A DNA stretch of 22,468 nucleotides from a virus, in the IMG/VR virus record IMGVR_UViG_3300031566_000398, positions 1-22,468 of that record; one strand, 5' to 3'. Below the pieces are notes generated by a model, which saw only the letters and a list, made by a program, of their open reading frames with translations, did no database searches and was not told the DNA's origin. Positions 4,582-22,468 of this stretch are shown in pieces (within the stretch, counting starts at the first letter, position 1; each line of letters opens with the position of its first letter). The position numbers and the translations under genes are program-made.

Positions 4582-4895
4582 TAGAGGTACTCGAGTGGGA
4601 GCAGGTAGGCTGGGGACCTCACGAAGCCTTCCTGCGAAAGCTAGAGCGACAACACGGGAAAGGGTATGTCAAGGCTCTGCAAGAAAGGCCAGAACCTCCC
4701 GGGTACCTACAAAGAATCCTGTCATGTTTCCTCACTTGCGATCGAAGAAGGGTTCACGCAAGAGCACCGATCAGTCTTGTTGATTTGGAGTCTTGGTTGA
4801 ACATACATCTGATTGACGATCTGGATCGTGAATGGTACTTCCACGTCGTTGAAAAGATGGACATCCATTTCCTGAGGAAACATGGCGACACTTGA
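4171..4895 (+). CDS. Tail assembly chaperone G-T fusion by -1 frameshift
   Basis: Reading 4171-4578 in frame, then -1 from base 4578, gives 136 residues of the short form plus 105 residues ending at TGA 4893-4895, 241 in total. The extension begins L-I-E-V-L-E-W-E-Q-V-G-W-G, continues with HEAFLRKLERQHGKGYV and ends RKHGDT. Its content of Trp, His, Arg and acidic residues suits a folded helical domain. I translated the stretch by hand and found no stop. In lambda the T domain binds tail tube subunits while the G part coats the tape measure protein, and only a few percent of products are G-T. The end overlaps the tape measure start by 14 bases, as is usual. Confidence 0.85.
4572..4578 (+). promoter_or_regulatory. 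Programmed -1 ribosomal frameshift site G GGA AAC
   Basis: The heptamer GGGAAAC fits the X XXY YYZ rule in the chaperone frame (gcG GGA AAC TGA). After slippage the two tRNAs re-pair on GGG and AAA, and the ribosome continues at CTG instead of reading the TGA at 4579-4581. Lambda uses the closely similar GGGAAAG at the same place in G-T. The -1 frame is then open to 4895 with no start codon of its own until an internal ATG at 4857, so it can only be expressed by frameshifting. I did not identify a clear downstream stimulatory structure by eye. Confidence 0.88.
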
Positions 4896-7800: not shown

Positions 7801-8058
7801 ATGTCCTCAGCCTCTAGTGCTCCTTCGAGTGGAGGAGGAGGAGGAGGTGGCATCAATCTCCGCGTTGATGTCGTGAACAACAGCAGCACAGCTAGTCCGA
7901 CGAAGACTGAAACTTCAGTTGTTCAGACAGCGCAGAACAGAGTCATGATCACCAACACTGTGACTGACGTCAATCAAGAAGACATCACTAGACGCGGACG
8001 CTTTGCACGCACGATGGAACAGCAATCAACGACTCGTTTTACAGGAGGTGAGCGATGA
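4882..8058 (+). CDS. Tape measure protein (lambda gpH-like)
   Basis: This 1058-residue protein starts at ATG 4882 behind GAGG, inside the end of the G-T frame. Residues about 150-325 hold the conserved tape-measure domain (SNVKALVGDITD, then LGATTRFSATEAASGLKFLS, then a GLRRVMINLSSPT segment). Residues about 465-560 contain hydrophobic stretches that may insert in the host membrane during DNA entry. Two related helical repeats lie at about 724-776 and 794-837. The end is glycine-rich with the motif FMASPDESVHVRTPGQ, familiar from lambda-like tape measures, and a short C-terminal beta/charged tail. No cysteine is seen. At 1.5 A per residue the helix would span about 160 nm, a rough estimate of tail length that ignores any processing. 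Confidence 0.92.
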   Translation: MATLERIIRLGIDSSGAVSGAATWTQSTGKIESSTRRTRDELGRFIKSPTGIRGLADKIRNEAKPAFDRFIADLRRTGTHTKLARNELGQFIRGRNSVDELQRKLNKIGSGSIGKLAGAFRSAKLALGGLGLGAGFGLTAVFNVIKNFEKEMSNVKALVGDITDNEFKAMEAEARRLGATTRFSATEAASGLKFLSLAGFESRESIAALEPTLNLAAAGAIDLGNAADIASNIATQFGIKAENLNRVVDTLAFTASKSNTNIEQLSEALKFAGPIASVAGIELEEVAAAAAQLGNAGIQAGLAGTGLRRVMINLSSPTESAVAAFADMDLSLSDLDLRTNSLTEVMAKLGNANLNVERASKIFGDRAAGVAVILARTSAKTADFEKRIRSAQGAAKRMADTMSDNLFGASKNLISVIQELILQTGDGGLTGAFRTMLDTTTSVLRVWAGMGESLGKNRRQFTTLADRIVVLAKTLGALASLQFAAKFLVPIAAQTAAAALGFARLTLQVRGFASAAAVAGTASGKLATALGLAPTPMTKILSIGFSLITMWGLYKTATAGAFTETRSLLDEAENFATTFGKQTGKVGEAMSRNVGNKVKELKEKIARDAITADDLVRPDVAREVDARLRSIFGRTQFPEDADNGEEKRAGVERTILRERSEAIQTLRNELGRYEVALRLVDEANSNLASNTAAREEIEKEHKAFLDAEASAAAFQLRMDTATVKQDVYSQVLELSITKQERFEEATKAINFALKENEISVEDAARVTEIFKDKIFGATKESKEFSSVLQAIRTPADDYADSLLLVNEALERNVINEAQAARATEVFAKRFKDATDKIAAGPPLAREFGDAMGKTLTSMVFQAQDAEAAFKNLALQIAEMIFQATIVEPLVNSIVGAFTGGIGSLFGGGLANGPQGLGSAPGGGSFNYQIAPLGSAMGGDFKVGGGGGTDSQLVQFMASPDESVHVRTPGQRAAMSSASSAPSSGGGGGGGINLRVDVVNNSSTASPTKTETSVVQTAQNRVMITNTVTDVNQEDITRRGRFARTMEQQSTTRFTGGER
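4996..5196 (+). repeat. Short N-terminal repeat in the tape measure protein
   Basis: Residues 39-59 (RDELGRFIK...) and 85-105 (RNELGQFIR...) share a 9-residue core, [DN]ELG[RQ]FI[KR], spaced 46 residues apart. Each is followed by a short helical stretch. This looks like an old internal duplication of a small helical unit in the N-terminal region, which in lambda-type phages is bound by chaperones. Confidence 0.5.
7051..7390 (+). repeat. Helical repeat pair in the tape measure protein
   Basis: Two units of about 45-50 residues, near residues 724-776 and 794-837, share the plan Y-x(2-3)-L-x(5-8)-A-L-x-x-N-x-I-x-x-x-x-A-A-R-x-T-E-[IV]-F-[AK]-[KD]-[RK]-F/I. They fit the helical repeats found near the C-terminal third of many lambda-like tape measure proteins. 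Confidence 0.55.
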
Positions 8059-8417
8059 CCACTTGGCTCGTGGCTCCTTTCCCTCAGACGCCTCAAGTTT
8101 CGAACTACGGAGAAAAGTTTCGGAACACGGCGCATCATGACGGCGTTGATGAAGGTCCTGTCATGAGTCGGCGCATCGGCCTTGCAGGACCGAAGCCGTT
8201 CACATGCGTATTCTGGCTCACGGCCGCTGAGGTAACTCAGCTGAGGACATGGTGGGAAGATACGATTGAAGACGGCACGATTGAATTCGACTTCCCTCAT
8301 CCGCATCCCGGCGTCGGTGGCACGATCGTATGTCAGATGTTCAAGCCACCTGATGCCAAGACCCAGGGCGGCGATCTCTGGACGGTAGGCTGTGAGATCA
8401 CAGAGGTGCTTGCCTGA
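8055..8417 (+). CDS. Minor tail protein, lambda gpM-like
   Basis: This 120-residue protein starts at ATG 8055, overlapping the tape measure stop (ATGA). It is beta-rich with a central FWLTAAEVTQLRTWWED helix (residues about 52-68) and an E-F-D-F-P-H-P-H-P-G turn. Lambda gpM, the distal tail protein that forms a ring between tube and tip, has 109 residues and lies in the same place, right after the tape measure gene and before L. I call it M-like mainly from position, size and general strand-helix-strand pattern. It could instead be a diverged distal tail protein of another family with the same role. Confidence 0.65.
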   Translation: MTTWLVAPFPQTPQVSNYGEKFRNTAHHDGVDEGPVMSRRIGLAGPKPFTCVFWLTAAEVTQLRTWWEDTIEDGTIEFDFPHPHPGVGGTIVCQMFKPPDAKTQGGDLWTVGCEITEVLA

Positions 8418-8929
8418 TGGCCGACGTAACACCCTCGGCATCCGTACGTCAGCAGATGGCAAGGCGTACGACGAAGAAGGCTCCCATTCTGTGTGTTGAG
8501 ATATTCCAGCCCGATGAACAAGATCCGACATACAGCGATTCACGATGGCCGATCCGTCTTTGCGATCATACGCAGAGCATCAATCATGGTGGGGATACGT
8601 TCACGGCAGTGTCCATGGACTGGTCACCGATCAACCGTGAGGAGGAAGAGGTTCCTCAGTTGATCATCAACGTGCTCGGTGTCGGCGATCTGTATTCAGA
8701 TCTGATGCGAAGCCTGAGCGTGAAGCCTCCGCGTGTGGATGTATTCACCGTGACGATTGACACGACGACAGGACTCGTTCAGCCTACACGTGACGAACAA
8801 ATCACGGACCTGCGCTTGAAGAAAGTGAAGGGCAGATTCGGCATCTCGTTCACGCTGCGCAAGCGAGAGTTCACAGGACCCTATCCAGTTCGTCGTTACG
8901 ACGGCATCACCTTCCCAGGTCTGCGATGA
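8417..8929 (+). CDS. Minor tail protein, lambda gpL-like/DUF1833 type
   Basis: This 170-residue protein overlaps the previous stop by one base (TGATG). Residues about 22-60 form beta strands (APILCVEIF, WPIRLCDH), followed by a segment with VSMDWSPINREEEEVPQL, a pattern typical of the DUF1833/L-like tail-tip family, and the end has YPVRRYDGITFPGL, also typical. Lambda gpL has 232 residues and a C-terminal domain binding a 4Fe-4S cluster through four cysteines. Here the protein is shorter, has only two cysteines, both in the N-terminal part, and so lacks that cluster domain. It probably closes the tube above the J protein. It sits between the M-like and K-like genes exactly as in lambda. Confidence 0.72.
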   Translation: MADVTPSASVRQQMARRTTKKAPILCVEIFQPDEQDPTYSDSRWPIRLCDHTQSINHGGDTFTAVSMDWSPINREEEEVPQLIINVLGVGDLYSDLMRSLSVKPPRVDVFTVTIDTTTGLVQPTRDEQITDLRLKKVKGRFGISFTLRKREFTGPYPVRRYDGITFPGLR

Positions 8930-9336
8930 AAGTCTACGCTGTCGATACAAGCGAGTATCGTGACTGGATGGCCGTCCCCTACAAAGAGTTCGGCAGAGAA
9001 CTCACTGGAGCCGACTGTTGGGGCTGGACTCGTCTGTTCCTGAAAGAGAAGATCGGCGTTGATCTGGCGATCTATGATGGGATGACGCGTCCGACTCCAG
9101 ACACGATCCGCGATCAGCTGAAGTCTGGATGGCGCAGACTAGCAGAAGATGAAGAGCCGCGTCCGTGGGACGTAGTCACGTATCTTCAATCCAGGTACGA
9201 CCTCCACCACATCGGCGTAATGATCGGGAACGACCATTTCTTGAGCATGATCGTTGGATCTTGTGTGACGACGGAGCGCTTGAGTAAAGGCGCTGATGAG
9301 TGGGAATTCGTGAGGCTGTATCGTTATGTCGGCTGA
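8926..9336 (+). CDS. NlpC/P60-family cysteine peptidase, lambda gpK C-terminal-like
   Basis: This 136-residue protein starts at ATG 8926 (ATGA overlap). The probable nucleophile is Cys31 in LTGADCWGWTRLF, the usual (N/D)C-x-G-x-x-x NlpC/P60 motif, and the probable catalytic histidine is His95 in LHHIGVMIG, with His104 a possible third polar residue. The family cuts peptidoglycan stem peptides. In tail tips it is thought to help local wall opening or tail assembly. Lambda gpK also carries an N-terminal JAMM/MPN domain. That half is missing here, since the protein begins about 30 residues before the active cysteine. A PRPWDVVTY strand before the histidine fits the family fold. Confidence 0.82.
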   Translation: MKVYAVDTSEYRDWMAVPYKEFGRELTGADCWGWTRLFLKEKIGVDLAIYDGMTRPTPDTIRDQLKSGWRRLAEDEEPRPWDVVTYLQSRYDLHHIGVMIGNDHFLSMIVGSCVTTERLSKGADEWEFVRLYRYVG

Positions 9337-12300
9337 AGTCATGATCGTAGAAGGGCTGGTGACGTTTGCCTATGCGACGAGCCATCTTGAGATTGATGCC
9401 GCTTCTGTGAAAGAGGTTCCGTGCGGCTTGTCCGTCACGGAGATGCTGGATGAGTACTTCGACGTCGACCACGAGGGGCTCGCGCCGCTTCACGTATATC
9501 TCGGCGGACACACAGAGATCGAGCTCGAAGACTGGGACGTCTATTATCCTGCCGCAGACTGCATGATTCTTGCTGTTCACATTCCACAAGGTCCTCTTCT
9601 GCTGCCGTTGCTTGCATCCGCGTTCGCAGCAGGAGGAGCAGGAACGGCTGGTGGTGCGTTGATCGCTGGAACTACTATTGGCGTTTCTTCAACAGCGGGC
9701 ATCCTTGCGGCAATCACGACAACGGTGTTGACCGTTGCGCTTTCGATTCTCCCTGCTGCACTCATGGGATCTCCAGATCAAGGAGGCGCGAACTACGTTC
9801 CGCCTGGAGCAAGTCCTTCGCTCAATGGCGTGAGCAACGACATTCGTCTTGGTCAGCCGATCATCAAGAATCTTGGACGCAATCTGGTCGTGTTCCCGCT
9901 CGCGACGTTGTCCTACACAGAGACGGTCGGAGAGGAGCAGTTTCAGGTCGTCGTGTTCTCTGGCGGTGAAGGAGTCAACACGATTGAAGAAGCGACGATG
10001 AAGTTCGGTGAGACGTTAGTCTCCAACACAGAGACGGAGTACGTTCTTCACTACGGTAATGGAAATACCAAGCACGTCTATCCCAATGCCTCCGGGCGAT
10101 CCCCCGTGTCGGTCGGTGGCGCGTATCCCGCTGACGGTCCGCCCGTTCTGGAAATTGCGACGCAGGACATCTATGAGGATCGTGTCGACGTCAAGTTTCG
10201 CACCGAGTACACTGGAGCGTGGACGGTCATTCAGGAAGTGATTCACACGACGACTCAAGCTGGTCGCTTCATCAGCTTCGAGCTTCATTTCCCTCAGGGA
10301 TTCGGTCGTTTGGATAGTGGTGATGGTGAGCTTCATGCTGATACTATCTTTCTTGGCATCGAAATACAGGAGCAGGGCGGCGGTGCTTGGACCCCGATCC
10401 CCGACCTTCCCGACTTCACAGACGGCGGCTTTCTTTCTACACACGATCTGAATCATCTCAACCTGACCGGCAATTTTGGAATTGCTACTGAGATCGTGTT
10501 GGATTATTTACTCCCTGGAGTTAATGGAAGACATGTAGCACCAATTCTGCCTGGGACATCCCCGTACAACGGGAACGTCAGTGAAAGCCTGAGAAATGCG
10601 CGAGTTGAAAACTATAGAGGGCAGTTCAAATACGTTGATTTGACGTATGCAAAGGGAATTCGATTCAGATCTTGGATCACGAGGTTCGGCGGAAGTTTCA
10701 TCGACGACAAGGTGTACAGCGGATCATTCTTCGAGTTGACCGGATCGTGGCCCGGTGTCCCTGCTGGAACATACGTTGAAATTGGCATCGTGGAAGCGAA
10801 CCGAATCGAGATTGTGGCAGTAGTCGACGTCAATCGAAAGGTTCGTTATGCAATAGCAGGAGAGGCAAACGGATACACTCCTCTGCACGCTCCGTATGTC
10901 TTCGATAATCTTGTAGCTGCTTCTCCGCGAACGTTGACGACAGAAGACTTCGACAACGTCATTCGCATCACGGGGAAGTCTCACACAGAGATACGCCAAG
11001 GCTTCAAGTTCGAGGCTCCTGCAGGAAGGGATAACTATTCCATTCGTCTTCGTAACTATGGCAATCCGTACTGGACGACGGATCGCTATACGAAGGATCG
11101 CAAAGGTTTCAAGGGCGATGGCATCGTCAATACTGCTGCGAACTACGTTGACTTCGTATGGACGGTATTGAGAGCTCACGATCTGGTCACACCGATCAAC
11201 GAGCCCGGTCAAACGTTGATCGAGATGCGAACGCAGTCCACAGATCACATCAACGGTGTCATCGCAAGATTCAACGCCGTGATGCAGTCCAAGCTCCGCG
11301 TGATAGCGGGCGGAGTACTCCAGGCTACTCCGATCGCAACGAGCAACGCGGCATGGTGCGCACTGGATACCCTCATCGGTAAGTCTGGCAAAGATCCTGT
11401 GTCTGATGCTGATCTTCCCACAACGATTGATCTTGATGCATGGGAAGACTGGGCAGACTTCTGCGATACGGAGAATCTTGAGTACAACAGGATTCACGAC
11501 TACGATTCTACACAGGAGCGTGAGCTCTACAGTATCGCCGCCGTGGGTCGTGCGAGTTTTGACAGAACCGACTTGATCACGCCGATCATCGAGAAGGCCC
11601 AAGACCCACTCGTCTACGGACAGGCATGGACTCCGCACAATTGCAAAGACATGACGTATGAGCGTGTCTTCACAGAAACGCCTCATCTTGTTCGTGCGAA
11701 ATTCCGCAACGCTGCAAAGAACTGGCAACCCGATGTCATTCCGATCTACTCCCCCGAGTATGGTCCCTACGAAGTGGCGGAGCTGGACATCACAATCAAC
11801 GCAGCCTCTTCGACAACAATCGTCATTAGCGGAGCAACGGGATGGGAAGACATAGGCGTTCGCGTTGGAAGCTGGGTGAGATTCCCACTTGGGTCATTGC
11901 AGCCTTGGAATTTCGGCAATGCATTTCTTACCTACCAATCCCCGACATGGCGATCGTTCCTCGTCACGAACTTGACAACGGTCGGTGCGAATCAAGAAGC
12001 GACGCTTAAGCTCAGGACTGGTGAAAGCCTTCAGCATCCGGGCTTTGACAACGGTCGCAAGCATGTTTCTGTTCGTCTGGCCGAGACCGTCGAGACCATT
12101 GATGAGTATGCCGTCACGAGTGAAGAGCAGGTCTACAATGACGTGCGACTGCGCGAGAACATCATCAACCTGCGCCCTGAAGTGTATCAATGGGAGTGCG
12201 GCTGGATCGGGATGAACACAAGGCGTGGACACGTCTGTCCAATCAGCCATTGGGCGCTCAAGGTCGGTCATTCGTTCGGACGCATCGCAACGATCATTAA

Positions 12301-15049
12301 TGACACGTTCAACTACTCGGAAGGCGAGGCAAAGCAGCCGCTTGAGTATCAACGGTATGAGGCTGATGGGTTCACTGTCATTGATTACGGCATCCTCATT
12401 CAGGATGAGGATCTGATCAGCACGGTCCATCCAATTCGCAACGAGGCAGACTTCGCAGCCGTGGCAACGCTGCGAACGACGCATTTCGAATTCTCGACTG
12501 GCGCTCCTACGTCAAGAATCTGGCTTGAGGATCATGTCATCGCGATTGGTCCGATCGCGCTTCTCAACGTTGATGGGTTGATAACCTCAGTACGCGGTAT
12601 TTCAAAGTATGCGTATGAAATTTCTGCTGTGCCGTACTCCCCTGAGATCTATGACAACGATCTCCTGGGGATTGATCTTCCGTCCTTTGACCCGAGGGTG
12701 TTCGTTCCCGACTCTACTCCCATCGGTGCTGCTCCTGCAGATCCCATCAACTGCTCTGCGAAAGGGCAGATGGTGCTCAACTCAGAGGGCAAGATCACTC
12801 GTCAGGTGAAGGCCGTGTTCTTTGCCGCGAATGCTTTCAATTCAGGATCGCGTACCGCTGCGACGATGAAAATTGAAGTGCAGTATCGCCTCTGTGCTGA
12901 TTCATCCGCATTCCTGCCAGAGACTCCGTGGCGCTCTTGGGGCATCTTTGACGTGCATCAGGCGGAGACGATCATTCCATTCAAGAATGAAACGAGGAGC
13001 GTTGATGTTCGATTCCGAGCGGTGAGTGCTCATGATGTGCCTTCCAACTTCGTTGTGGTCACCGGAGTCAAACTGCTGGGAGAGACCGGAAAGGTTGCTG
13101 GGATTCAGGCGCAGGACTTCCTGAAGCAGACGGCATCCGGCGTGAAGAAGGTTCTACGTATCACGTGGAGCTATCCGCAGGGAGTGAGCAAACACTCTAT
13201 CTCAGCCGACGTCAACAACGTCGGTACTGGATTGGCAGACAATCGCTTCACGCTCGACCCTGTTACAGCAGATTTCAAAAGCTTCAGGATTGGGCAGCAG
13301 CTCGTTACGACCGGATTCCTCAATGCTGAGAACAACGGTGTCTGGACCATATTCAGCGCCGCTCTTGGTTCTGGTGTCATCAACGTAACTCCGACTGGAG
13401 TCACGGTCGATGAGCTTGCCTCTGCCAATGGCAACGTGCAGATGGAGACCTTCAATACAGACGACGAAGGCACGCTGCTCTTGCGGCCTGAATACTTCAT
13501 CGTTCGTTGGTCATTCGATGGCGGAGCAAGAAAGACAGATGTAGTTCTTGCAGGATCAGGCGAAAATACATTCTTTGACGTGCTGGACGCGCAGGAAGGT
13601 ATCTACACGTTTGAAGTGACGGCTGCCGGACCCGACAGCGCTCCTGGTAAGCCTGTCTCAAGAACGTTTCAGTATTCACAGACAGTAGACGTTGATCTTC
13701 CTAGGCCTCGTGGTTTGAAGGCAAAGGGATCTCCGCATGATGATCCTGGAAAGTTCGTGGGTCGTGATCTTGTCGTGCGATGCGACCACACTGCGCCTCT
13801 TGACTTTATGCTCCGCAATCAAGGGCAGCAGATCACTTTCAATTCTGGATCGATCAACACAGGCTTCATTGACTGCTACGAATTTTCGTTCATCGATCCC
13901 GTGACGGATGAAGTTCTTGAGATCATCAAGGTGCGAGGCTCCGAGGAGCCGCAAGCGACTTATGGATATGATCTGAACTTTTCGCAGTCTGTAGAGAGTG
14001 GTCGAGAGAATCCGCGCAGGGACATACTGGTCAGAGTAGTGACATGCGATGCGTCTGGTAACGAAAGCCCTCCTGCTGTTCTGCTCTGCCACAACCCGAA
14101 AGCGCCGGAAGTCAAAGTCAAGAACTTCGTCAATGGTATCGGAAATTCTCTTGGTGTCGTGCTTCATAGTATTGATCACGATTTAACTGATGACATCAGG
14201 TTGTCTGTGAACAGGAAGTCTCCTTACGCAATAAGGAGAGGAGTTGAAAAACAACTGGCAGACAGGAGTCATTACACTGTCTGGTCAAAACCCCATAACC
14301 AAGACAATGCACGTGAGATCACAGACGCAGAAATTCAGATGTTGGATCCGCTGATTGAATCTGCGAATCGAGCGATGGTGTTCCCTCAGCTTGAGATCAA
14401 TCGTGTGTATCTGATGCGAATGGCTCAGTCGGATGTGTATTCACTCACGAGCGACGAGATGATCCTTGCTACGCACAGTGATGTCGTTCAGTTCATAGAT
14501 GACGGTTACGTTCGCATGATCCAAGAGCCATTGATTCATGAGTACGGATCTCCGATCTCAGATTGGATTGACTTGTCGGCCATCACGATTGAAGGCACTG
14601 GAGCAACGCCGACGATCAGTACGTATAACGAATTTGGTCATTGGTTCCATGCCAGTGCCGGATTAGATCATGGATATGATCTATCAAATCCGATACCGAC
14701 AGGATGTTTCTCGATTTACACTGTTCATCACGTCTTGTACAAAGAGACGGCTGGTGGTGAAGTGATACTTGACTCTGGGAAGAATACTTACGACAGTTCT
14801 TCACCTTCAAGATTCACTTCGGATTCAGATACGAAGCCTCAGCTAATCGGAACGCACACGTTGACGAACGTTGCTGATCCAGATGGTGCTCTTGCTGCTG
14901 GTGAAGTAGCAACGTACAGATATAAATTTCGATTCACGACTCTCAGTAGTAGTGGTTCACTATCAACAGATCTCATCGTGAATGCTAATTTGATCAATCC
15001 AGGTTCTGGATGGAAAGTCGATTCATCTGTTGCTCCTAGCATAGGATAA
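9326..15049 (+). CDS. Giant tail tip protein: I-like N-terminus fused to J-like host-specificity protein
   Basis: This 1907-residue protein overlaps the K-like gene by 11 bases. Residues 1-90 have a beta-grasp-like layout (SVTEMLDEYF, HVYLGG, then D-x-D-V-Y-Y-P-A-A-D) as in lambda gpI. Residues about 92-146 are a long Ala/Gly/Leu hydrophobic segment. Residues about 149-190 carry the J signature SLNGVSNDIRLGQPIIKNLGR. Around 670-790 is the conserved central J region (IATSNAAWCALDTL, WEDWADFCDTEN, SIAAVGRAS). Residues about 1150-1540 look like a string of fibronectin-type beta modules, with an inserted 'NNG' domain at about 1290-1373. The last 120 residues form a beta-rich tip. J forms the trimeric central tail fibre that contacts the receptor; lambda J has 1132 residues. 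Confidence 0.9.
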   Translation: MSAEVMIVEGLVTFAYATSHLEIDAASVKEVPCGLSVTEMLDEYFDVDHEGLAPLHVYLGGHTEIELEDWDVYYPAADCMILAVHIPQGPLLLPLLASAFAAGGAGTAGGALIAGTTIGVSSTAGILAAITTTVLTVALSILPAALMGSPDQGGANYVPPGASPSLNGVSNDIRLGQPIIKNLGRNLVVFPLATLSYTETVGEEQFQVVVFSGGEGVNTIEEATMKFGETLVSNTETEYVLHYGNGNTKHVYPNASGRSPVSVGGAYPADGPPVLEIATQDIYEDRVDVKFRTEYTGAWTVIQEVIHTTTQAGRFISFELHFPQGFGRLDSGDGELHADTIFLGIEIQEQGGGAWTPIPDLPDFTDGGFLSTHDLNHLNLTGNFGIATEIVLDYLLPGVNGRHVAPILPGTSPYNGNVSESLRNARVENYRGQFKYVDLTYAKGIRFRSWITRFGGSFIDDKVYSGSFFELTGSWPGVPAGTYVEIGIVEANRIEIVAVVDVNRKVRYAIAGEANGYTPLHAPYVFDNLVAASPRTLTTEDFDNVIRITGKSHTEIRQGFKFEAPAGRDNYSIRLRNYGNPYWTTDRYTKDRKGFKGDGIVNTAANYVDFVWTVLRAHDLVTPINEPGQTLIEMRTQSTDHINGVIARFNAVMQSKLRVIAGGVLQATPIATSNAAWCALDTLIGKSGKDPVSDADLPTTIDLDAWEDWADFCDTENLEYNRIHDYDSTQERELYSIAAVGRASFDRTDLITPIIEKAQDPLVYGQAWTPHNCKDMTYERVFTETPHLVRAKFRNAAKNWQPDVIPIYSPEYGPYEVAELDITINAASSTTIVISGATGWEDIGVRVGSWVRFPLGSLQPWNFGNAFLTYQSPTWRSFLVTNLTTVGANQEATLKLRTGESLQHPGFDNGRKHVSVRLAETVETIDEYAVTSEEQVYNDVRLRENIINLRPEVYQWECGWIGMNTRRGHVCPISHWALKVGHSFGRIATIINDTFNYSEGEAKQPLEYQRYEADGFTVIDYGILIQDEDLISTVHPIRNEADFAAVATLRTTHFEFSTGAPTSRIWLEDHVIAIGPIALLNVDGLITSVRGISKYAYEISAVPYSPEIYDNDLLGIDLPSFDPRVFVPDSTPIGAAPADPINCSAKGQMVLNSEGKITRQVKAVFFAANAFNSGSRTAATMKIEVQYRLCADSSAFLPETPWRSWGIFDVHQAETIIPFKNETRSVDVRFRAVSAHDVPSNFVVVTGVKLLGETGKVAGIQAQDFLKQTASGVKKVLRITWSYPQGVSKHSISADVNNVGTGLADNRFTLDPVTADFKSFRIGQQLVTTGFLNAENNGVWTIFSAALGSGVINVTPTGVTVDELASANGNVQMETFNTDDEGTLLLRPEYFIVRWSFDGGARKTDVVLAGSGENTFFDVLDAQEGIYTFEVTAAGPDSAPGKPVSRTFQYSQTVDVDLPRPRGLKAKGSPHDDPGKFVGRDLVVRCDHTAPLDFMLRNQGQQITFNSGSINTGFIDCYEFSFIDPVTDEVLEIIKVRGSEEPQATYGYDLNFSQSVESGRENPRRDILVRVVTCDASGNESPPAVLLCHNPKAPEVKVKNFVNGIGNSLGVVLHSIDHDLTDDIRLSVNRKSPYAIRRGVEKQLADRSHYTVWSKPHNQDNAREITDAEIQMLDPLIESANRAMVFPQLEINRVYLMRMAQSDVYSLTSDEMILATHSDVVQFIDDGYVRMIQEPLIHEYGSPISDWIDLSAITIEGTGATPTISTYNEFGHWFHASAGLDHGYDLSNPIPTGCFSIYTVHHVLYKETAGGEVILDSGKNTYDSSSPSRFTSDSDTKPQLIGTHTLTNVADPDGALAAGEVATYRYKFRFTTLSSSGSLSTDLIVNANLINPGSGWKVDSSVAPSIG
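13195..13445 (+). repeat. 'NNG' domain copy 2 (inside the J-like gene)
   Basis: This encodes about residues 1290-1373 of the J-like protein: F-R-I-G-Q-Q-L-V-T-T-G-F followed by NNGVW at 1336-1340, then V-I-N-V-T and a closing N-V-Q strand. It parallels the insertion in the tail tube protein (positions 3131-3395), with the same order of strands and the same NNG-[IV]-W core. It interrupts a fibronectin-like module. Confidence 0.6.
15034..15046 (+). promoter_or_regulatory. Small hairpin covering the ribosome binding site of the fibre gene
   Basis: TCCTA (15034-15038), a GCA loop and TAGGA (15042-15046) form a five-base-pair hairpin whose right arm is the AGGA Shine-Dalgarno for ATG 15053. It would be opened by ribosomes finishing the J-like gene, which stops at 15049, so it could enforce translational coupling. 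The stem is weak and may be chance. Confidence 0.3.
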
Positions 15050-15052
15050 AAT

Positions 15053-15997
15053 ATGAGTGTATTTAAGGGTTTCAACTGCTACGTGGAAAACGGTGATGAC
15101 ACCGTTCGTGCAATCTGGGTCGTCACTCTTGACGCATCCGTGAACTGGACGCAAGATGAAGTCTTGACTTGGGATGGAGCAGCGGGAACCGGGAAGCACG
15201 TTTCTGATAGTAATTTCCAGTTGAAGCTCTACAGAACGGCTGGGGCTCTTCCAGATATCGGTGACACCGTTCTTGGAGGTTCATCCGGAGTTAGCGCAGA
15301 CATTTCAAACATTGAAGCGTTTGATGTCAATGGTGTTCCGTTGTATCCACCGGAGTTCGCTACAAACAGTCGACAAACGGCTTTGGCGGGCGGCGAGTTT
15401 TTCAGGGTTTCAGATGGTGCTGCTCTGGACAGGCAGGGCATCGTCGACGGTACGATCAACCGAGACACGTTTCAACTATCACAGAACTGGAACGGTCCGA
15501 CGCTCATAGACGTGCCTGGACATTGTAGCCAAGACGTCACTCCTCTGTTTGGAATCGAGCTTGCCAGTCAGGGCGACAATCAACCAATTGCCACACAGAG
15601 AAATGCAACTGGACAAATTGAGACTATCATCCAGGGACCGGCATGGATCACAGTGACGTCGTTCTCCAACGGCTTCACGGATGCGTACCAGAGAGATGCC
15701 ATTTCTGGAGACCACAATCTCGTTCAGTACCGAAAATCTTCAGATGGTCTTGTCCACATTCGCGGAGCAGTAGAACGTCTCGCCGGCGTCCCGACGACAC
15801 AGGATGAGATCTTCTTGCTGCCGTCTGGATACCGACCGCCTGCGTCTATGCGATTCCTTGTGTATGGCGCAGACATCAACAACAATCCGTACACGATCTG
15901 GATCACGAGCGGTGGTTCTGTCAAGTGGATTCAGGGTCCTGTGTATCCAACGAATGACTACATGGGTCTTGACGGCGTTTCCTTCTATAACTACTAG
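15053..15997 (+). CDS. Tail fibre with receptor-binding-like C-terminal domain
   Basis: This 314-residue protein starts at ATG 15053, three bases after the J stop, with AGGA at 15043-15046. Residues 1-195 are beta-rich, with FKGFNCYVENGDDTVRAIWVV near the start. Residues about 197-314 show a pattern common at the end of many tail fibres and baseplate receptor-binding proteins: W-I-T-V-x-x-F-x-N-G-F, then V-Q-Y-R-K-S-S-D-G-L-V-H-I-R-G, then I-F-L-L-P-S-G-Y-R-P-P, and finally M-G-L-D-G-V-S-F. This is a beta-sandwich head known to bind host surface glycans or proteins in other phages. The gene probably encodes a side fibre or a tip attachment to the J protein. Confidence 0.75.
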   Translation: MSVFKGFNCYVENGDDTVRAIWVVTLDASVNWTQDEVLTWDGAAGTGKHVSDSNFQLKLYRTAGALPDIGDTVLGGSSGVSADISNIEAFDVNGVPLYPPEFATNSRQTALAGGEFFRVSDGAALDRQGIVDGTINRDTFQLSQNWNGPTLIDVPGHCSQDVTPLFGIELASQGDNQPIATQRNATGQIETIIQGPAWITVTSFSNGFTDAYQRDAISGDHNLVQYRKSSDGLVHIRGAVERLAGVPTTQDEIFLLPSGYRPPASMRFLVYGADINNNPYTIWITSGGSVKWIQGPVYPTNDYMGLDGVSFYNY

Positions 15998-16005
15998 GAG
16001 CCACG

Positions 16006-16398
16006 ATGGCACTACTCACAGTCCAGAACGAAGATGAGCTCGTGCTCGGCGTTCCGACCTATGTCAACCCGACGACGCCGCTCGGTGATACGTTCATCAA
16101 CACGGGGCAGGAGGGAATCTGGGTCAACAACCAGACGATCTCGATCATCAAGCTCGTTATCAACAGTGTGGATTCCAACTTCGGCTCTTACCCGGAGAAA
16201 GTCATGCAGATCGGTGCCGGAGATACCAAGCTGGGACTTCGTATGGACGGTCGTCGTTTCAACGACGATTACGGCCAGGTGTCATTTCTGATGACTGACA
16301 ACTCCGGAGCGTCCGCCACCGTACCCGGCGCCGTGTTGACCAATATGTCCAACGTCTGGGTCGCAGTCGTTCGTTACCGAACGTGGTTCAAGGATTAG
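16006..16398 (+). CDS. Small beta-rich structural protein, possible decoration-type
   Basis: This 130-residue protein starts at ATG 16006 with the TAGGAG site overlapping the upstream stop. It has no cysteine and no signal peptide. The sequence alternates short strands: GDTFINTGQEGIWVNN, ISIIKLVINS, then an M-D-G-R-R-F-N-D-D-Y-G-Q-V-S-F stretch and a closing VAVVRYRTWF. The order (N-x-G, short strands, a R-F-N-D turn, then G-x-V-x-F) resembles small decoration or fibre-associated proteins of phages, but I cannot name a family. Its codon use is strongly biased to C-ending codons (10 AAC to 1 AAT by my count), like the capsid genes, so it may be a high-copy virion protein. Confidence 0.6.
   Translation: MALLTVQNEDELVLGVPTYVNPTTPLGDTFINTGQEGIWVNNQTISIIKLVINSVDSNFGSYPEKVMQIGAGDTKLGLRMDGRRFNDDYGQVSFLMTDNSGASATVPGAVLTNMSNVWVAVVRYRTWFKD
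16390..16394 (+). promoter_or_regulatory. Ribosome binding site that favours ATG 16401 over GTG 16383
   Basis: AAGGA lies six bases upstream of ATG 16401, an ideal distance. A GTG at 16383 in the same frame would add six residues in front of the signal peptide and has no comparable site. The ATG also leaves a 2-base gap from the upstream stop, matching local packing. Confidence 0.6.
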
Positions 16399-16400
16399 GA

Positions 16401-19259
16401 ATGACAAAGACAAATCGAAACTGGATCCTGCTTGGACTGCTCATCTTCACGATGGTCTTCTGGGCTTTTGTATCAGAAGCACAGCCGGTGTTCTCCAACG
16501 CGAGGCATCTCAGTGCCTCGGGGAATCCAAACACTGTCGGTGCTACCTGTGCAGCAACGGGCATCAGCAAAGATCGCTACGTCAACACAGACGATGCGAT
16601 GGAATGGTACTGCTCTGCTGTAGACACTTGGCTCATGTTCCCGGGGGGCGCGGGTATCACTTCAGCAGCAGTGGAAACGTTGATCGAGAGCGAGACGAAG
16701 ATCCATCGCATGTGCGACTGGGATAACGACGGCACGACCTACGTGACGTGCACCGCGAAGGACTTCGTTGGAGCCGTCGAGACTCCGTGGTGCAAGTATT
16801 CCGGCGAGGTGATCTGGCCCGACTTCGCCGACGACCTCAACGCGGCTGTCCACCAGACTGACAGCAACGCAGCTTGCGAGACTGTGGCAACGGGTGACAC
16901 GATCCTGCTCGACAACGCGATTTATCCCATCGCGCCTTGTCAGAATTCAACGTCAGGAGCGGGCGTTGACTACAGCAATCCGTTTGATCGTTCGCAGGTT
17001 GCGACGTTCCCTGTAGACGCAGCAATCGAAGCTGAGTGTGCCGTCGACAAGCAGGGGAACCTGCTCCACGGACTTCAGTTTCAGGACTGGCAGGGAGTCA
17101 TCCAGGGCGCTGGATGGGATCTACGCTCTTCAACGCAGACGGAAATTGATCTGCGTGCTGAGGGTCGCACGGTCGGATCTACGATCGTCATCGACGAGGG
17201 GCCGGTCATCGGGGACTGGTTCGGGACCACGGAGCATCACAAGCCGTTCGGATTCGGCTTCCAGGATGCCCCGTGCGGAAGTGGACAGTACAACTCTTGT
17301 CATACAGGGACGGGCACCTACGACCTCGGTCTTGGCGTAACGCCCAGCCTCGTAGCAAAGGACTTGACGCAAATCGAGACGACGGGCACTGGAGAAGGCT
17401 TCATGCTCTGTATCAGTGGAGCCTACGCGGATCAGCTCGTTGCGGGTGATCTCCTGGGCGTGGGCGCCGCGTATGACGCTACGCCTCTTCAACAGGGCAG
17501 CGCGCTCACGACGCTGACGTTCAAGGAAGCCATCACACCGACGGCGAGCGATGCCTGCGATCTGGTTGCTGGCACGAACAAGTGGATCCGCTTCGGTGCC
17601 CATCCGCTTGGCATCGGTGCTAACAATCCAGGCGTCAGTCGGATGCACGTGACGCAGCCACAGGGTGAGATCATCGGGCTGACGTCATTCGGCGTCGTGC
17701 AAATTCCTGCCGGCCGGTTGAACGGCAAGATGGTTCTGCGCGATCTGACCGTGGAGCCGCAGGACATCTGGAACGGCGGTGGTGATTGCGTCGTTGCGAC
17801 GGGCCTTGCCGACTACGACTTCTACTTTGACGGTGACGACACGCTGAGCGCTGATGAAGCGGGCAAACCTCGTGGTCTGGACGTCGATGCTCCAGACTGC
17901 GATACGACGACAATGATCTCGATGCACGAGGGATCTGAGACTCACATGCAGCGCGTTGCAGTCAAACATTGGGGTCACTTCGCGATGGACGGCATCGGCG
18001 CTGGACAGCGTGGCGTGTTCGAAGACGTCCAGATGATGTACGGCAACGGTCAGTCGATCGACGACGGTGGACAGAAGGGAGAATACGTTCGCGTTACGAT
18101 TTCCAAGTCCGTGTTCGTCGGCTCGATCTTCGCAGCCTACGGACCGCGACGCGTCACCGGGATGCGCATCATAGACTCCGGCTTCAGCACGATCTTCACG
18201 CTCAACCCCGACAACAACTTCTCCGAACTGCTGGACACGGAGATCATCAGTTCCTCGTTCGTCACGGCCGTTATCGTCAACGAGGGAGCGCAGTTCAACA
18301 CGGTACGGAACCTCACGTCGCGTGGTAGAACGGCAAGCTGGAACGCCAGCTCACCCAGTTCGAGCATGATCATGATCGAGGCTGGGAACGGGTTCGAGCA
18401 CATTACAGGCAACACCTTCAGCGGCATCCGCGATGCTCCGCCGATGGGTACGTGGGCGTGGGACTCCGTTGACAAGACGGGTCGGCAGGGGCTCGTCAAG
18501 GTCAACCTGTACGGAACCGAAGAGGGCGTTGACCTGATCTACGGCAACACGTTCAACGACATGTACATGGACGTCTATGGAGCATCGAAGGCTGACGCGC
18601 GCATGGTCTGCATGATCAAGGGGCTGGACGAAACCGGGCGGCGGTTGGAGTTCTTCACCAACAACACTTTCTCCGATCTGGAGATCTTGGGCGGTGGAAA
18701 GATATTCGGTGGAACCGTGGGATCGAATGACGCCTGTTCGGTGGGTGACGTCTCTACGGTACTTCCGACTGGCTGCAATCTCTTCGAGTGGCCTGGAGGT
18801 ATCCGCACCCACGCCAAATCCCAGTGCGGCCGCATGAAAGCCCGGTGGGTTGGGCGATACAACGACTCTGCTGCAATCACCGTGGACGGAACGTGGCAGC
18901 AGATGACCACTGGTTCGGAACTCTCGAATTACGGTGGCGCGCGAGACTTCAGCTTCGCAACACCCAAGCTGACGTTCAACCGGAACATGGTGGCGACGGC
19001 ACGACTTCGCTGTGCGACCAAGTGGGCCGCGAGTAACAAGGTCCACGCCATCGGCATTGGCGTGGACGATGCGACACCGATCGCGAATGCAGATCAGCCT
19101 ATCGGTCTGGTGAGCGGTGGCGACTGGCGGGTGTCGGACATCACGATCGCGTTGACGAATCCGACATCCATCAAGCCGTGGCTGATTCCATATTTCGGAA
19201 CTTCAAACCCAGTCACGGTGACGTGGGACAACTGCATCGTAGAGGTCATCGAAGAATGA
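16401..19259 (+). CDS. Exported beta-helix tail-fibre/adhesin-like protein
   Basis: This 952-residue protein begins with a Sec-type signal: Lys3/Arg6, then a hydrophobic core from Trp8 to about Val24, and a plausible cut after Ala27 (S-E-A). Residues about 430-775 look like a right-handed parallel beta-helix, with repeated turns such as GNTFSG, GNTFND and NNTFSD and rungs ending in small residues. Residues about 814-952 form a beta-sandwich resembling C1q/TNF-like fibre tips. Around 20 cysteines are spread through the protein, far more than in the tail genes upstream. Beta-helix fibres often bind or cut surface polysaccharide, but no catalytic residues can be picked out with confidence. The position after a fibre gene argues for a virion fibre; the signal peptide argues for export. 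The next gene overlaps the stop in ATGA. Confidence 0.75.
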   Translation: MTKTNRNWILLGLLIFTMVFWAFVSEAQPVFSNARHLSASGNPNTVGATCAATGISKDRYVNTDDAMEWYCSAVDTWLMFPGGAGITSAAVETLIESETKIHRMCDWDNDGTTYVTCTAKDFVGAVETPWCKYSGEVIWPDFADDLNAAVHQTDSNAACETVATGDTILLDNAIYPIAPCQNSTSGAGVDYSNPFDRSQVATFPVDAAIEAECAVDKQGNLLHGLQFQDWQGVIQGAGWDLRSSTQTEIDLRAEGRTVGSTIVIDEGPVIGDWFGTTEHHKPFGFGFQDAPCGSGQYNSCHTGTGTYDLGLGVTPSLVAKDLTQIETTGTGEGFMLCISGAYADQLVAGDLLGVGAAYDATPLQQGSALTTLTFKEAITPTASDACDLVAGTNKWIRFGAHPLGIGANNPGVSRMHVTQPQGEIIGLTSFGVVQIPAGRLNGKMVLRDLTVEPQDIWNGGGDCVVATGLADYDFYFDGDDTLSADEAGKPRGLDVDAPDCDTTTMISMHEGSETHMQRVAVKHWGHFAMDGIGAGQRGVFEDVQMMYGNGQSIDDGGQKGEYVRVTISKSVFVGSIFAAYGPRRVTGMRIIDSGFSTIFTLNPDNNFSELLDTEIISSSFVTAVIVNEGAQFNTVRNLTSRGRTASWNASSPSSSMIMIEAGNGFEHITGNTFSGIRDAPPMGTWAWDSVDKTGRQGLVKVNLYGTEEGVDLIYGNTFNDMYMDVYGASKADARMVCMIKGLDETGRRLEFFTNNTFSDLEILGGGKIFGGTVGSNDACSVGDVSTVLPTGCNLFEWPGGIRTHAKSQCGRMKARWVGRYNDSAAITVDGTWQQMTTGSELSNYGGARDFSFATPKLTFNRNMVATARLRCATKWAASNKVHAIGIGVDDATPIANADQPIGLVSGGDWRVSDITIALTNPTSIKPWLIPYFGTSNPVTVTWDNCIVEVIEE

Positions 19260-21118
19260 AGTACCTACTTCTACTCATTTCGATTCTGCTGCTCGCGGCG
19301 CCGTCGTTGTCGCACGAAGGGGTTTCGGTCACCACGTCGGCTCAGCTCAAAGTGGCGATGGACGAGGGTGAGCTTCGAATCCGTGGTGGCAACGCCAACC
19401 AGGGCACCATCACGATCAGCTCGCCCGTGACGTGGAATCTCCAGTATTACCCTGCCGGCTCTGTCGTGAAGATGGATGATATTCAGCTTACGCTCGGCGC
19501 GAACATCACGATGATCAACGTGCCAGACAACTTCTCCATCAACCACTTTGGAACACTCAGCACGACTGGAGCGAACCGCATAATCTCCAGTGATCGAACG
19601 ACAGGCGATCAGCTCGACTGGAACGTCGTCACCATTGCCGTTCCGACAACGCTCAGCCTGTCTTTCGACAACATGACGGTGGTCTACCACCGACTGAAGG
19701 GCGCCGGGGCATCCGATGCCGTTGGAACGATCGCAGCAACAGGAGGAGCGCCGGGCATTCTCATCGCTGCGGCATGGGCATCGCAGTATGAGAATCGGAC
19801 AGGAGTAGCAGCGTGGACGTCCGCACTCGACCTCGGACTTCAGGATCTCGTCTCATTCTCGAATGTGATGTACCGATGCACGGCTGCAAACTGCCTTGGC
19901 TCTGAAGGAGATCCGACCGTCAACTCTGAGTGGGTGGTCGTCGCACCAGACACAGACACGATCTTCACACCGAACACCGCTCCTGGCGTGGATCACGCGA
20001 GCTACGTGGCGGGGCACACTAATGGAGCAAACTGTGCGGCTGGAGAGATACCTCTCGGCGTGGACGCTGCTGGCGTGGTGGAGAGCTGTTACGAGCCGAC
20101 TGAATCGGACATTACCGATCTAGCGCATACGCCCCCGCTAAACGACCTGTCGGACGTCACACTGACAACGCCGGCCGTAGGAGCCACGCTGGTCAAGAGC
20201 GCAGGCAACTGGGTGGATGGACAGCTCGACCTAGCCGATGCGGATGCGGTCACTGGTCTGCTGCCGGACGCCAACGTAGCTGCGACGATTGCTCGGGACT
20301 CGGAGATCACCACCGACATCTCCACACACGCAGCGATAAGCGCAGCACATCATACGGCGACGGTAGAAACAAACAGCCTCGAAACTACTATCACAGGAGT
20401 TCTTTCCACTGAGGTGTTCGTCGGTAGCGGTGCCGATGCCGGTGCATTCGTCGCCCTGAGCGGTGATGCGACGATGACGAGCGGTGGCGTGGTAACTGTG
20501 GTCGATGATCTGCACGCGCACACGACTACGAGTCTTTCCGGCATCGACATATCAGACGATACGAATCTCGCGGTCACGGCACCTGTGGTGCTGACGGGTG
20601 ACACGGTGAGCGTGACGCTGGGCACGAGGCAGAAATACATGCCCGCCTATTCGCTGGAGGTGGACGGTACGCAATGCGCGAATCCGGCATCGGTGACCAT
20701 CAACAGTGGGCCGATCGTCGGTGCGATCGTCTGCGCGGACAACGCATCGTCGGCCATCTACGGGAGCCTGCCGCTACCGGATAATTACAGCGGCACTACG
20801 GTGACGTTCGAGATGCACGCGCACGAAGCAGCCGGTACGGGTGTGCTCTCGATGGACTTCTCGGGCCAGTGCCGCAGCAACAGCGACGTCATCAATTCGA
20901 CCTGGGGGTCGGCTGTTGAAGCTGCCGTGACGTTCGCTACGGCGAACGACTTGATGATCGACGCCACGGCTGCGGTCACCCCGGACGGCACCTGTGCTGC
21001 GGGGGATCATCTGTTCTGGCGTGCTGTGATGGACTCAACGACAACGACAACGGCGACGGCCAATATTCTCGGCGTGCTCGTACAGTACGAGATTGCCGAC
21101 TTTGATGAGGTGGACTGA
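19256..21118 (+). CDS. Exported repetitive fibre-like protein with C-terminal beta-sandwich
   Basis: I place the start at ATG 19256, which overlaps the previous stop (ATGA). The frame is open further upstream, but this start alone gives a clean signal peptide: Lys2, a Leu/Ile core, and a plausible cut after Ser19 (S-L-S). The protein has 620 residues. Residues about 20-200 are beta-rich. Residues about 240-450 are low-complexity Ala/Thr/Asp/Val repeats typical of phage fibre shafts, including NCAAGEIPLGVDAAGVVESC, a cysteine-bracketed unit seen in many environmental phage fibres. Residues about 460-620 form a beta-sandwich with paired cysteines. It has 8 cysteines. It probably acts with the beta-helix protein before it. 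An enzymatic role is not indicated. Confidence 0.72.
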   Translation: MKYLLLLISILLLAAPSLSHEGVSVTTSAQLKVAMDEGELRIRGGNANQGTITISSPVTWNLQYYPAGSVVKMDDIQLTLGANITMINVPDNFSINHFGTLSTTGANRIISSDRTTGDQLDWNVVTIAVPTTLSLSFDNMTVVYHRLKGAGASDAVGTIAATGGAPGILIAAAWASQYENRTGVAAWTSALDLGLQDLVSFSNVMYRCTAANCLGSEGDPTVNSEWVVVAPDTDTIFTPNTAPGVDHASYVAGHTNGANCAAGEIPLGVDAAGVVESCYEPTESDITDLAHTPPLNDLSDVTLTTPAVGATLVKSAGNWVDGQLDLADADAVTGLLPDANVAATIARDSEITTDISTHAAISAAHHTATVETNSLETTITGVLSTEVFVGSGADAGAFVALSGDATMTSGGVVTVVDDLHAHTTTSLSGIDISDDTNLAVTAPVVLTGDTVSVTLGTRQKYMPAYSLEVDGTQCANPASVTINSGPIVGAIVCADNASSAIYGSLPLPDNYSGTTVTFEMHAHEAAGTGVLSMDFSGQCRSNSDVINSTWGSAVEAAVTFATANDLMIDATAAVTPDGTCAAGDHLFWRAVMDSTTTTTATANILGVLVQYEIADFDEVD

Positions 21119-21678
21119 TGCGACGGTTTCTCCTAGTTCTGATTCTTCTCATGGCAACCAGCGCATCCGCGATCGACGTGACGATCACGATCCCGGCAGC
21201 GGTGACCACAGACTTCGTGGATGCTTGTAAACGGATCAGCCGGCAATACGGTACGAAGCAATTCACAAACGGAGTCGCGGCTGGCACGCTTTCCCGAGAG
21301 GACTGCTTGCTCAAGATGCTGTCCGAGTACATGGTGCCTGAGATTCGCGATGTTGAATCGCGAGTACAGCGCAACGTGGGACGGTCTGCCGTCTCTTCTG
21401 TCGTGACTACCTTCGAGTCTGGTTTTGCCTGGAGTCCGCCGCTGGCAGTCTGCGGGGACAGCGAGATTGACGCGAACGTGGGGGAGTCCTGCGACAATGG
21501 AGGTTCGAACGGATCTGCGATGCCTTGCTTGCCGTCATGTTCGATTGCGACGTGCGGTGATGCGACTGTTTGCTCGGATGCAGCGTGCACGAGCGGACCC
21601 GGTGGCGGTCCTGAGGAATGCGATCCCGGCGTGTCTGGCATCGCATCGTGTGACGTAACATGCGCCGTCATACCGTAA
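21118..21678 (+). CDS. Exported small protein with two myxobacterial-type cysteine-rich repeats
   Basis: This 186-residue protein starts at ATG 21118 (TGATG overlap). Residues 1-18 are a classical signal peptide, with Arg2-Arg3, a Leu/Val/Ile core and A-S-A before Ile19. Residues 33-75 are helical, with ACKRISRQYG and EDCLLKMLSEYMVPEI, a motif pair common in small phage tail-region proteins. Residues 112-182 hold ten cysteines in two units: CGD-x(7)-GESCDNGG...C-x3-C (112-141) and CGD...EECDPG...C-x3-C (146-182). This matches the plan of the cysteine-rich repeat family (DUF4215-like) common on the surfaces of Myxococcota and related bacteria. The repeats presumably fold by disulfides outside the cytoplasm. 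The function is unknown; adhesion is a reasonable guess. Confidence 0.75.
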   Translation: MRRFLLVLILLMATSASAIDVTITIPAAVTTDFVDACKRISRQYGTKQFTNGVAAGTLSREDCLLKMLSEYMVPEIRDVESRVQRNVGRSAVSSVVTTFESGFAWSPPLAVCGDSEIDANVGESCDNGGSNGSAMPCLPSCSIATCGDATVCSDAACTSGPGGGPEECDPGVSGIASCDVTCAVIP

Positions 21679-22468
21679 TCGCGTTAGTTGTAGTCGCGAT
21701 CTGCTGTCTCGCGTTCGTCCCTGGACGAAAGCGTGGCGGCGGTGGCGGTACTCCTGCACCTGATTGGACTGCATCGTTCGTCGCCGTTTGGCTGCTAGAA
21801 GAATCAAGTGGAACGCGCTTGAATGAGTCCGCCACTACATGCGGTTCAGATTGTAACTTCGGTACTCTCTTGGGCTCTCCAAGTCAGGACGCTACGAATT
21901 ACGTTGAAGGATCAGCCAGTGTCGTCGGGAATAGAGCTGACGGTGCCGACCAAGTTCTTTGTACTGAGTCGGTTTGCAATGAGTTAAAGCTGTATTCCCC
22001 AGTGAGTTGGGGTGGCTGGTATCGTCAACAGCAAAATGGGAACAACACGAACGCTTTTCAAGCTAAGGCTTACTCGTCCCCATACCGAGGGTATTCGTTA
22101 TCACATTTTCGATGGGGATCGCCGAACCATCATTACGAATGTACGGTTGAAGGCATAACCACGACCATGAGTACGGCGAGTGCTCTTAATACGTGGGAGC
22201 ACAGGGTGTGCACTTATCAAGATGACGCAGACGATGAGCTGAACGCATACCGAAACGCAGTTCTTAATGCGACACCAAGCACAGGAGCAGTGACGGCTGG
22301 TGGTGGCTCTTACGATCCCATTGGTATAGGGGGAGGTTGGGGTTTAGGTGGTGGTGCGGATGAGCAATTCGTGATCTCCGTCGAGCTAAGCGCTGAACAG
22401 ATTTGTCGCATTGTTTCGTGCCAGATTGATGGCTCCCTGTGTACCTGTAGCGGAGCAAGCTACACGGA
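21660..22468 (+). CDS. LamG/concanavalin-like lectin with N-terminal hydrophobic anchor (3' truncated)
   Basis: I read this frame by hand from ATG 21660 to the window end (269 codons, no stop), overlapping the previous gene by 19 bases. An in-frame TGA at 21651-21653 fixes the start. Residues 4-21 are hydrophobic, but with Cys15-Cys16 and no clear cleavage motif, so an uncleaved anchor is possible; R23-K24-R25 and a glycine run follow. From about residue 35 the pattern DWTASFVAVWLLEESSGTRL, then Y-V-E-G-S-A-S-V, then an R-V-C-T-Y...N-A-Y-R-N-A-V strand pair fits LamG/concanavalin-A-like lectin domains. The motif LSAEQICRIVSCQIDGSLCT near residues 243-262 packs several cysteines. Such domains bind carbohydrate. 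The true C-terminus lies outside the window. Confidence 0.78.
   Translation, partial: MRRHTVIALVVVAICCLAFVPGRKRGGGGGTPAPDWTASFVAVWLLEESSGTRLNESATTCGSDCNFGTLLGSPSQDATNYVEGSASVVGNRADGADQVLCTESVCNELKLYSPVSWGGWYRQQQNGNNTNAFQAKAYSSPYRGYSLSHFRWGSPNHHYECTVEGITTTMSTASALNTWEHRVCTYQDDADDELNAYRNAVLNATPSTGAVTAGGGSYDPIGIGGGWGLGGGADEQFVISVELSAEQICRIVSCQIDGSLCTCSGASYT

Follow-up and report, generated by a model that had tools for sequence, protein, structure and literature searches.

The window analysed here, a 22,468-nt (22.5 kb) virus fragment from IMG/VR, carries a siphovirus tail module on the + strand. This module comprises a tail tube gene (PF18906), a tape measure protein of 1058 aa (4882..8058; PF10145, 2.5e-39; phrog_1533, 1.2e-81), tail-tip genes encoding a 120-aa protein, a DUF1833 protein and an NlpC/P60 peptidase (8055..9336; PF08875, PF00877), and a J/TipJ-like tail tip attachment protein of 1907 aa (9326..15049; NF040662, 1.3e-11; phrog_469), for which tblastn found matches in 11 phage records. 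Two fibre-region proteins of 314 and 130 aa follow (15053..16398), the former with weak matches to phrog_13022 and to minor tail proteins. Neither the J-like protein nor these two proteins has a signal peptide according to our signal rule. The gene order of the tail module is the same in Rhizobium phage RHph_Y3_1. A 12.2-kb contig represents approximately the same virus (best tape measure segment 100% identical) and overlaps only the left part of the window. Host matching against 84,980 genomes confirmed no host in a first scan and gave four chance-like 17-residue matches in a second.

Further downstream on the + strand lie four genes that occupy, behind J, the tail-module position of phage tail fibre and receptor-binding proteins. 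Protein 1 (952 aa, 20 Cys) is encoded at 16401-19259, protein 2 (620 aa, 8 Cys) at 19256-21118, protein 3 (186 aa, 12 Cys) at 21118-21678, and protein 4 (at least 269 aa, 12 Cys) at 21660..22468, with no stop codon before the contig end that cuts it. A 2-nt gap after position 16398 separates the first of these genes from the preceding one, and the following junctions are overlaps of 4, 1 and 19 nt; coordinates and spacing agree with the preliminary description, which had placed four genes here, coupled by tiny gaps or overlaps. No promoter-like or terminator-like site was found on the + strand from 15000 to 22468.

The same description had assigned a Sec-like signal peptide or anchor to each of the four proteins, and our rule was positive for all four, with a weak cut in protein 4. 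Proteins 1 to 3 have the features of Sec/signal peptidase I substrates, with a positive n-region, an uncharged hydrophobic core and small residues at -3/-1. The signals are MTKTNRNWILLGLLIFTMVFWAFVSEA/QP in protein 1 (residues ~1-27, 16401-16481, predicted cut SEA/QP), MKYLLLLISILLLAAPSLS/HE in protein 2 (residues ~1-19, 19256-19312, predicted cut SLS/HE) and MRRFLLVLILLMATSASA/ID in protein 3 (residues 1-18, 21118-21171, predicted cut ASA/ID). The predicted cleaved N-termini would appear as semi-tryptic peptides starting QPVFSNAR, HEGVSVTTSAQLK and IDVTITIPAAVTTDFVDACK. Protein 4 starts with a signal or signal-anchor, MRRHTVIALVVVAICCLAFVPG (residues ~1-22), which holds 2 of its 12 Cys; a hydrophobic core is present, but the cleavage site is doubtful and the weakest of the four. 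The detector was a crude rule-based script and not SignalP. With it, signal peptides were found in 4 of 19 tail-module genes, namely the last four, and in none of the 15 preceding tail/virion genes (Fisher p=2.6e-4). Applied to 28 other phage regions, the same rule was positive for 9/357 genes, several of them encoding lysis or membrane proteins. Among six isolate phages with a related J, 0/22 J and downstream proteins carry a signal as annotated, and an unannotated upstream start would add one to one of these 22 genes. Signals on fibre-region genes are easily missed in annotation, for example when the start codon is set too far downstream. In Bradyrhizobium phage ppBeUSDA76-1 (OP596613), a gene at 14470-15627 is annotated from a start at 14542, which omits an in-frame upstream start; the latter gives a strong signal peptide. 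The encoded protein has a C-terminal D-glucuronyl C5-epimerase domain (PF06662, 1.2e-44) and may be an exported modifier of the host surface carried by the prophage.

The cysteine content noted for this region also held, with 20, 8 and 12 Cys in proteins 1 to 3 against none in the tape measure protein. Across five contigs (the window and the four described below), the Cys share was 1.81% in the mature part of 13 exported-type proteins and 0.49% in 35 neighbouring proteins not of this type (p=1.5e-5, Mann-Whitney). The number of Cys is even in only 8/11 complete proteins, a parity that is weak and not convincing.

Protein 2 contains a fibre module, LSDVTLTTPAVGATLVKSAGNWVDGQLDLADADAVTG (20093..20305, +), with 44-61% identity to proteins of three environmental viral contigs, L014, L016 and L017, over 71-144 aa (pairwise blastp), and it was also aligned with L013 and L014 (alignment A1). 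Its C-terminal part (20618..21115, +) was modelled by AF2 as a beta-sandwich head (pLDDT 69, ~80 in the core), which shares 45% identity with the L013 fibre, all four Cys being kept (4/4). The head model resembles viral fibre tips or heads in BFVD (best E 1.7e-8), while its PDB matches, to lambda gpJ, capsule tailspikes and carbohydrate-binding modules, are marginal (best E 1e-3). Protein 4, which is truncated, has a putative LamG/ConA-like lectin domain (PF13385, 7.7e-6; 26.6 bits, just below the curated cut-off of 27.6) and no relatives in the phage collection. Protein 1 is repetitive and looks beta-helix-like by eye; it had no family match in profile searches and no direct relatives in viral contigs or phage genomes, and its AF2 model without alignment (pLDDT 31) is unusable except for the N-terminal helix. 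By eye, protein 1 seemed to contain a Cys-pair module that the fibres of L013 and L016 have, but a profile did not find it there. For protein 3, no relatives were found, phage collection included, and no NCBIfam or Pfam match. By eye, its C-terminal half (21450-21675; VCGDSEIDANVGESCDNGG) is similar to cysteine-rich repeats of myxobacteria, but the Myxococcus cysteine-rich repeat profile TIGR02232 gave no match at E<=10. None of the window proteins had a significant direct match to known virion fibres, and profile searches with them matched neither Lom nor other outer-membrane families.

Relatives of protein 2 were found in four other environmental viral contigs, L013, L014, L016 and L017. The module-bearing protein has a signal peptide in 5/5 contigs, window included, all five being fragments and the relatives having been found by searching with the window's protein or with an alignment built on it. 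These relatives are a 1990-aa fibre in L013 (signal MKRLLIALALLIGASVDA/AV), a 665-aa protein in L014 (MRLLTGRACGLIGLVCLLTGSPAYA/EP), a 1744-aa protein in L016 (MKMKARALLLGVALALWGQAQA/QT) and a truncated protein in L017 (MRKLILAFACLLAAPVSA/FE). What the five proteins have in common is only a module of ~45-140 aa; the C-terminal domain also occurs in L013 and, weakly, in L016. Contigs L019-L027 were rejected as family members, as they have only a short stretch in common with the query and their matching proteins lack signal peptides.

The surroundings of the module were also compared. In L014, five exported-type ORFs in a row are flanked by a collar-like protein that is not exported and by an endolysin-like gene. 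L013 has its exported fibre and an exported protein of 412 aa immediately ahead of an endolysin-like gene. The names collar and endolysin were given by eye from the sequence. Two of the L014 ORFs were missed by the strict rule because their n-region has no net positive charge. The L014 cassette includes a PF13229 beta-helix and a PKD domain. The motifs GDMLD and GNHD give an exported-type protein of 438 aa (L014, 5956-7272) the look, by eye, of a calcineurin-type phosphoesterase, but it has no Pfam match at E 0.1. Two further exported-type proteins lie past the lysis-like genes of L013 (12846-13870), and the 192-aa one is cohesin-like by eye. The mature N-terminal domain of the L013 fibre is also found as two tandem small non-exported proteins in L016 (8004-8330 and the next gene, to ~8673; 42% and 37% identity). 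At the far end of the L016 record (L056, 7066-8451), a gene looks by eye like a tyrosine integrase; if it is real, the L016 phage would be temperate. Residues 269-403 of the L013 fibre, which lie in a module not shared by protein 2, match tail fibres of cultured phages; these lack signals and have mostly 0-0.3% Cys, with P-SSM2 as an exception (~1.1%).

A further case came from L007, a low-GC phage found via its tape measure. Downstream of its tail genes are a 1000-aa protein with a weak tail match (phrog_4577; signal ..CLNLFS/QQTPS) and a 271-aa protein (18220-19035; signal ..LATYS/QTIY), the cuts being placed by eye where the script preferred other sites. With Gln after the cut, both signals fit the Q-rule of Bacteroidetes (PMC10653852), and we infer, from this fit and the low GC only, that the host is a bacteroidete. 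The 271-aa protein belongs to phrog_8198 (1.3e-37), whose cyanophage members are in part annotated as virion proteins; the signal is absent in every homologue examined, including those in contigs L046-L048. The same domain therefore occurs with and without an export signal. A hydrophobic helix arisen by chance would hardly account for a Q-rule-type signal on a tail-related protein.

The simplest joint reading of these observations is that the four proteins are receptor- or glycan-binding and work outside the cytoplasm. We tentatively favour, at somewhat under an even chance, an explanation in which the four genes form a late cassette of fibre or appendage proteins routed via the host Sec pathway. 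Signal peptidase I would cut off the N-terminus, the periplasm would be the site of folding and disulfide formation, and at lysis the exported proteins would meet released virions and then act as receptor- or glycan-binding appendages. The analysis shows in silico the signal-peptide architecture, the Cys enrichment, the signals and Cys kept in the relatives, the fibre-type modules and the place of the operon behind tail genes. The further parts of this scheme differ in strength: actual export and cleavage are very probable, disulfides are probable, and mounting on virions is a tentative proposal at somewhat under an even chance. For T4 and P22, in vitro complementation has established that completed particles can acquire their fibres or spikes outside the cell. 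Mounting at lysis is slightly preferred because the relatives' modules are common to virion fibres, because the N-terminal domain of the L013 fibre also exists in non-exported form in L016, and because the genes follow the tail genes and, in two relatives, have lysis-type genes as their immediate downstream neighbours. Tailed-phage virions are put together in the cytoplasm, and their fibres are usually attached through the N-terminus, the end that carries the signal here; both points count against mounting. No docking domain was identified in the cassette proteins, which also counts against it.

The four proteins could also be exported without becoming virion parts: secreted, or set free at lysis, they would bind or cleave glycans on their own. 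We consider this unlikely, though it is the alternative that best survives, and the same holds for the role it would imply, in clearing host polysaccharide or acting on neighbours. The LamG-like domain of protein 4, the beta-helix and PKD domains of L014 and the marginal resemblance of the protein 2 head to carbohydrate-binding modules all point this way, and such a domain mixture would suit a secreted cocktail. Some cassette members in the relatives (the beta-helix, PKD and, by eye, phosphoesterase-like proteins of L014) have less the look of fibres than of secreted enzymes or surface proteins of bacteria, which counts against the favoured explanation. However, long repeat-rich fibre architectures and modules shared with virion fibres are unexpected in free enzymes, and no catalytic domain was found in the window.

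Less probable still, and in our view quite unlikely, is that the proteins remain in the envelope or at the surface of the host cell, infected or lysogenic, and serve there as adhesins, to mask receptors or to exclude superinfection, a case of lysogenic conversion. Precedents exist in lambda Lom (PMC12309495) and in Q-rule genes of Porphyromonas phages (PMC10367356), the Bradyrhizobium prophage has its exported-type C5-epimerase-domain gene behind a fibre gene, and the L016 record may hold the integrase seen by eye. Against this, the cassette is coupled to the tail genes and has no promoter-like site of its own, so that expression is probably late; moreover, proteins 1-3 showed neither a lipobox nor a match to an outer-membrane family.

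That the hydrophobic N-terminal helices stay uncleaved and tether the fibres to the tail, or resemble export signals only by chance, is very unlikely: the lack of a strong cleavage site in protein 4, the crude detector and the apparent signals reported on Porphyromonas phage capsid proteins (PMC10367356) would agree with it, but cleavage motifs of the A-x-A or Q-rule kind are found repeatedly in contigs that are not related, Cys enrichment tracks the signals, virion relatives lack the helix, and no J or downstream gene of the six isolate phages has a signal as annotated. The preliminary description is supported in that the fibre region does encode cysteine-rich proteins of exported type, and these carry fibre-type domains. 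Of its interpretations, uncleaved N-terminal anchors are disfavoured by the A-x-A-type sites in unrelated contigs and by the Q-rule fit in the Bacteroidota-like phage. Its other three, namely maturation in the periplasm with later joining to virions, surface adhesins or decoys, and secreted glycan-binding proteins, are alike compatible with the sequence, and the modules shared with virion fibres somewhat favour the first.

Tail fibres determine which hosts a phage can infect, and the usual assumption is that both their folding and their assembly take place in the reducing cytoplasm. The recurrence of the pattern in unrelated environmental phages suggests that, in some phages, appendages related to the virion are made outside the cytoplasm of the bacterium and not within it. 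It is conceivable, at less than an even chance in our view, that certain tailed phages of diderm bacteria follow a split route, in which heads and tails would be made in the cytoplasm while disulfide-hardened receptor-binding fibres would be Sec-exported, oxidised in the periplasm and mounted only at lysis. If true, a recurring exported cysteine-rich fibre cassette would represent either a second assembly route for tailed phages, outside the cytoplasm, or a class of secreted phage proteins that has received little notice.

In the literature searched, which holds few subscription papers, no account was found of tailed phages whose tail fibres are exported by Sec. Among known proteins, tail fibres such as Pelagibacter phage Kolga gp17, Roseobacter phage CRP-1 gp37 and Achromobacter phage Axy12 gp72 share a homologous module with the L013 fibre; they are alike in fibre architecture and place among the tail genes, but lack a signal peptide and usually have few Cys. 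Synechococcus phage S-SCSM1 gp31 and S-H9-1 gp83 have the phrog_8198 domain in common with the exported-type 271-aa protein of L007, but in the homologues checked no signal peptide is present, and the N-terminus is instead a short cytosolic segment or some other sequence. The nearest precedents for exported fibre-region proteins appear to be lambda Lom and the Porphyromonas Q-rule genes. Lom carries a signal peptide, and its gene lies between the regions for the tail spike and the tail fibre (PMC12309495); it is a small outer-membrane beta-barrel, whereas the window proteins are long, fibre-type and cysteine-rich. Phages of Porphyromonas gingivalis (Nixviridae) carry genes of unknown function with Q-rule signals fitted to the host signal peptidase I, and the authors of that work regard them as potential modifiers of the outer membrane (PMC10367356); unlike the window cassette, the encoded proteins are not described as fibres or as cysteine-rich.
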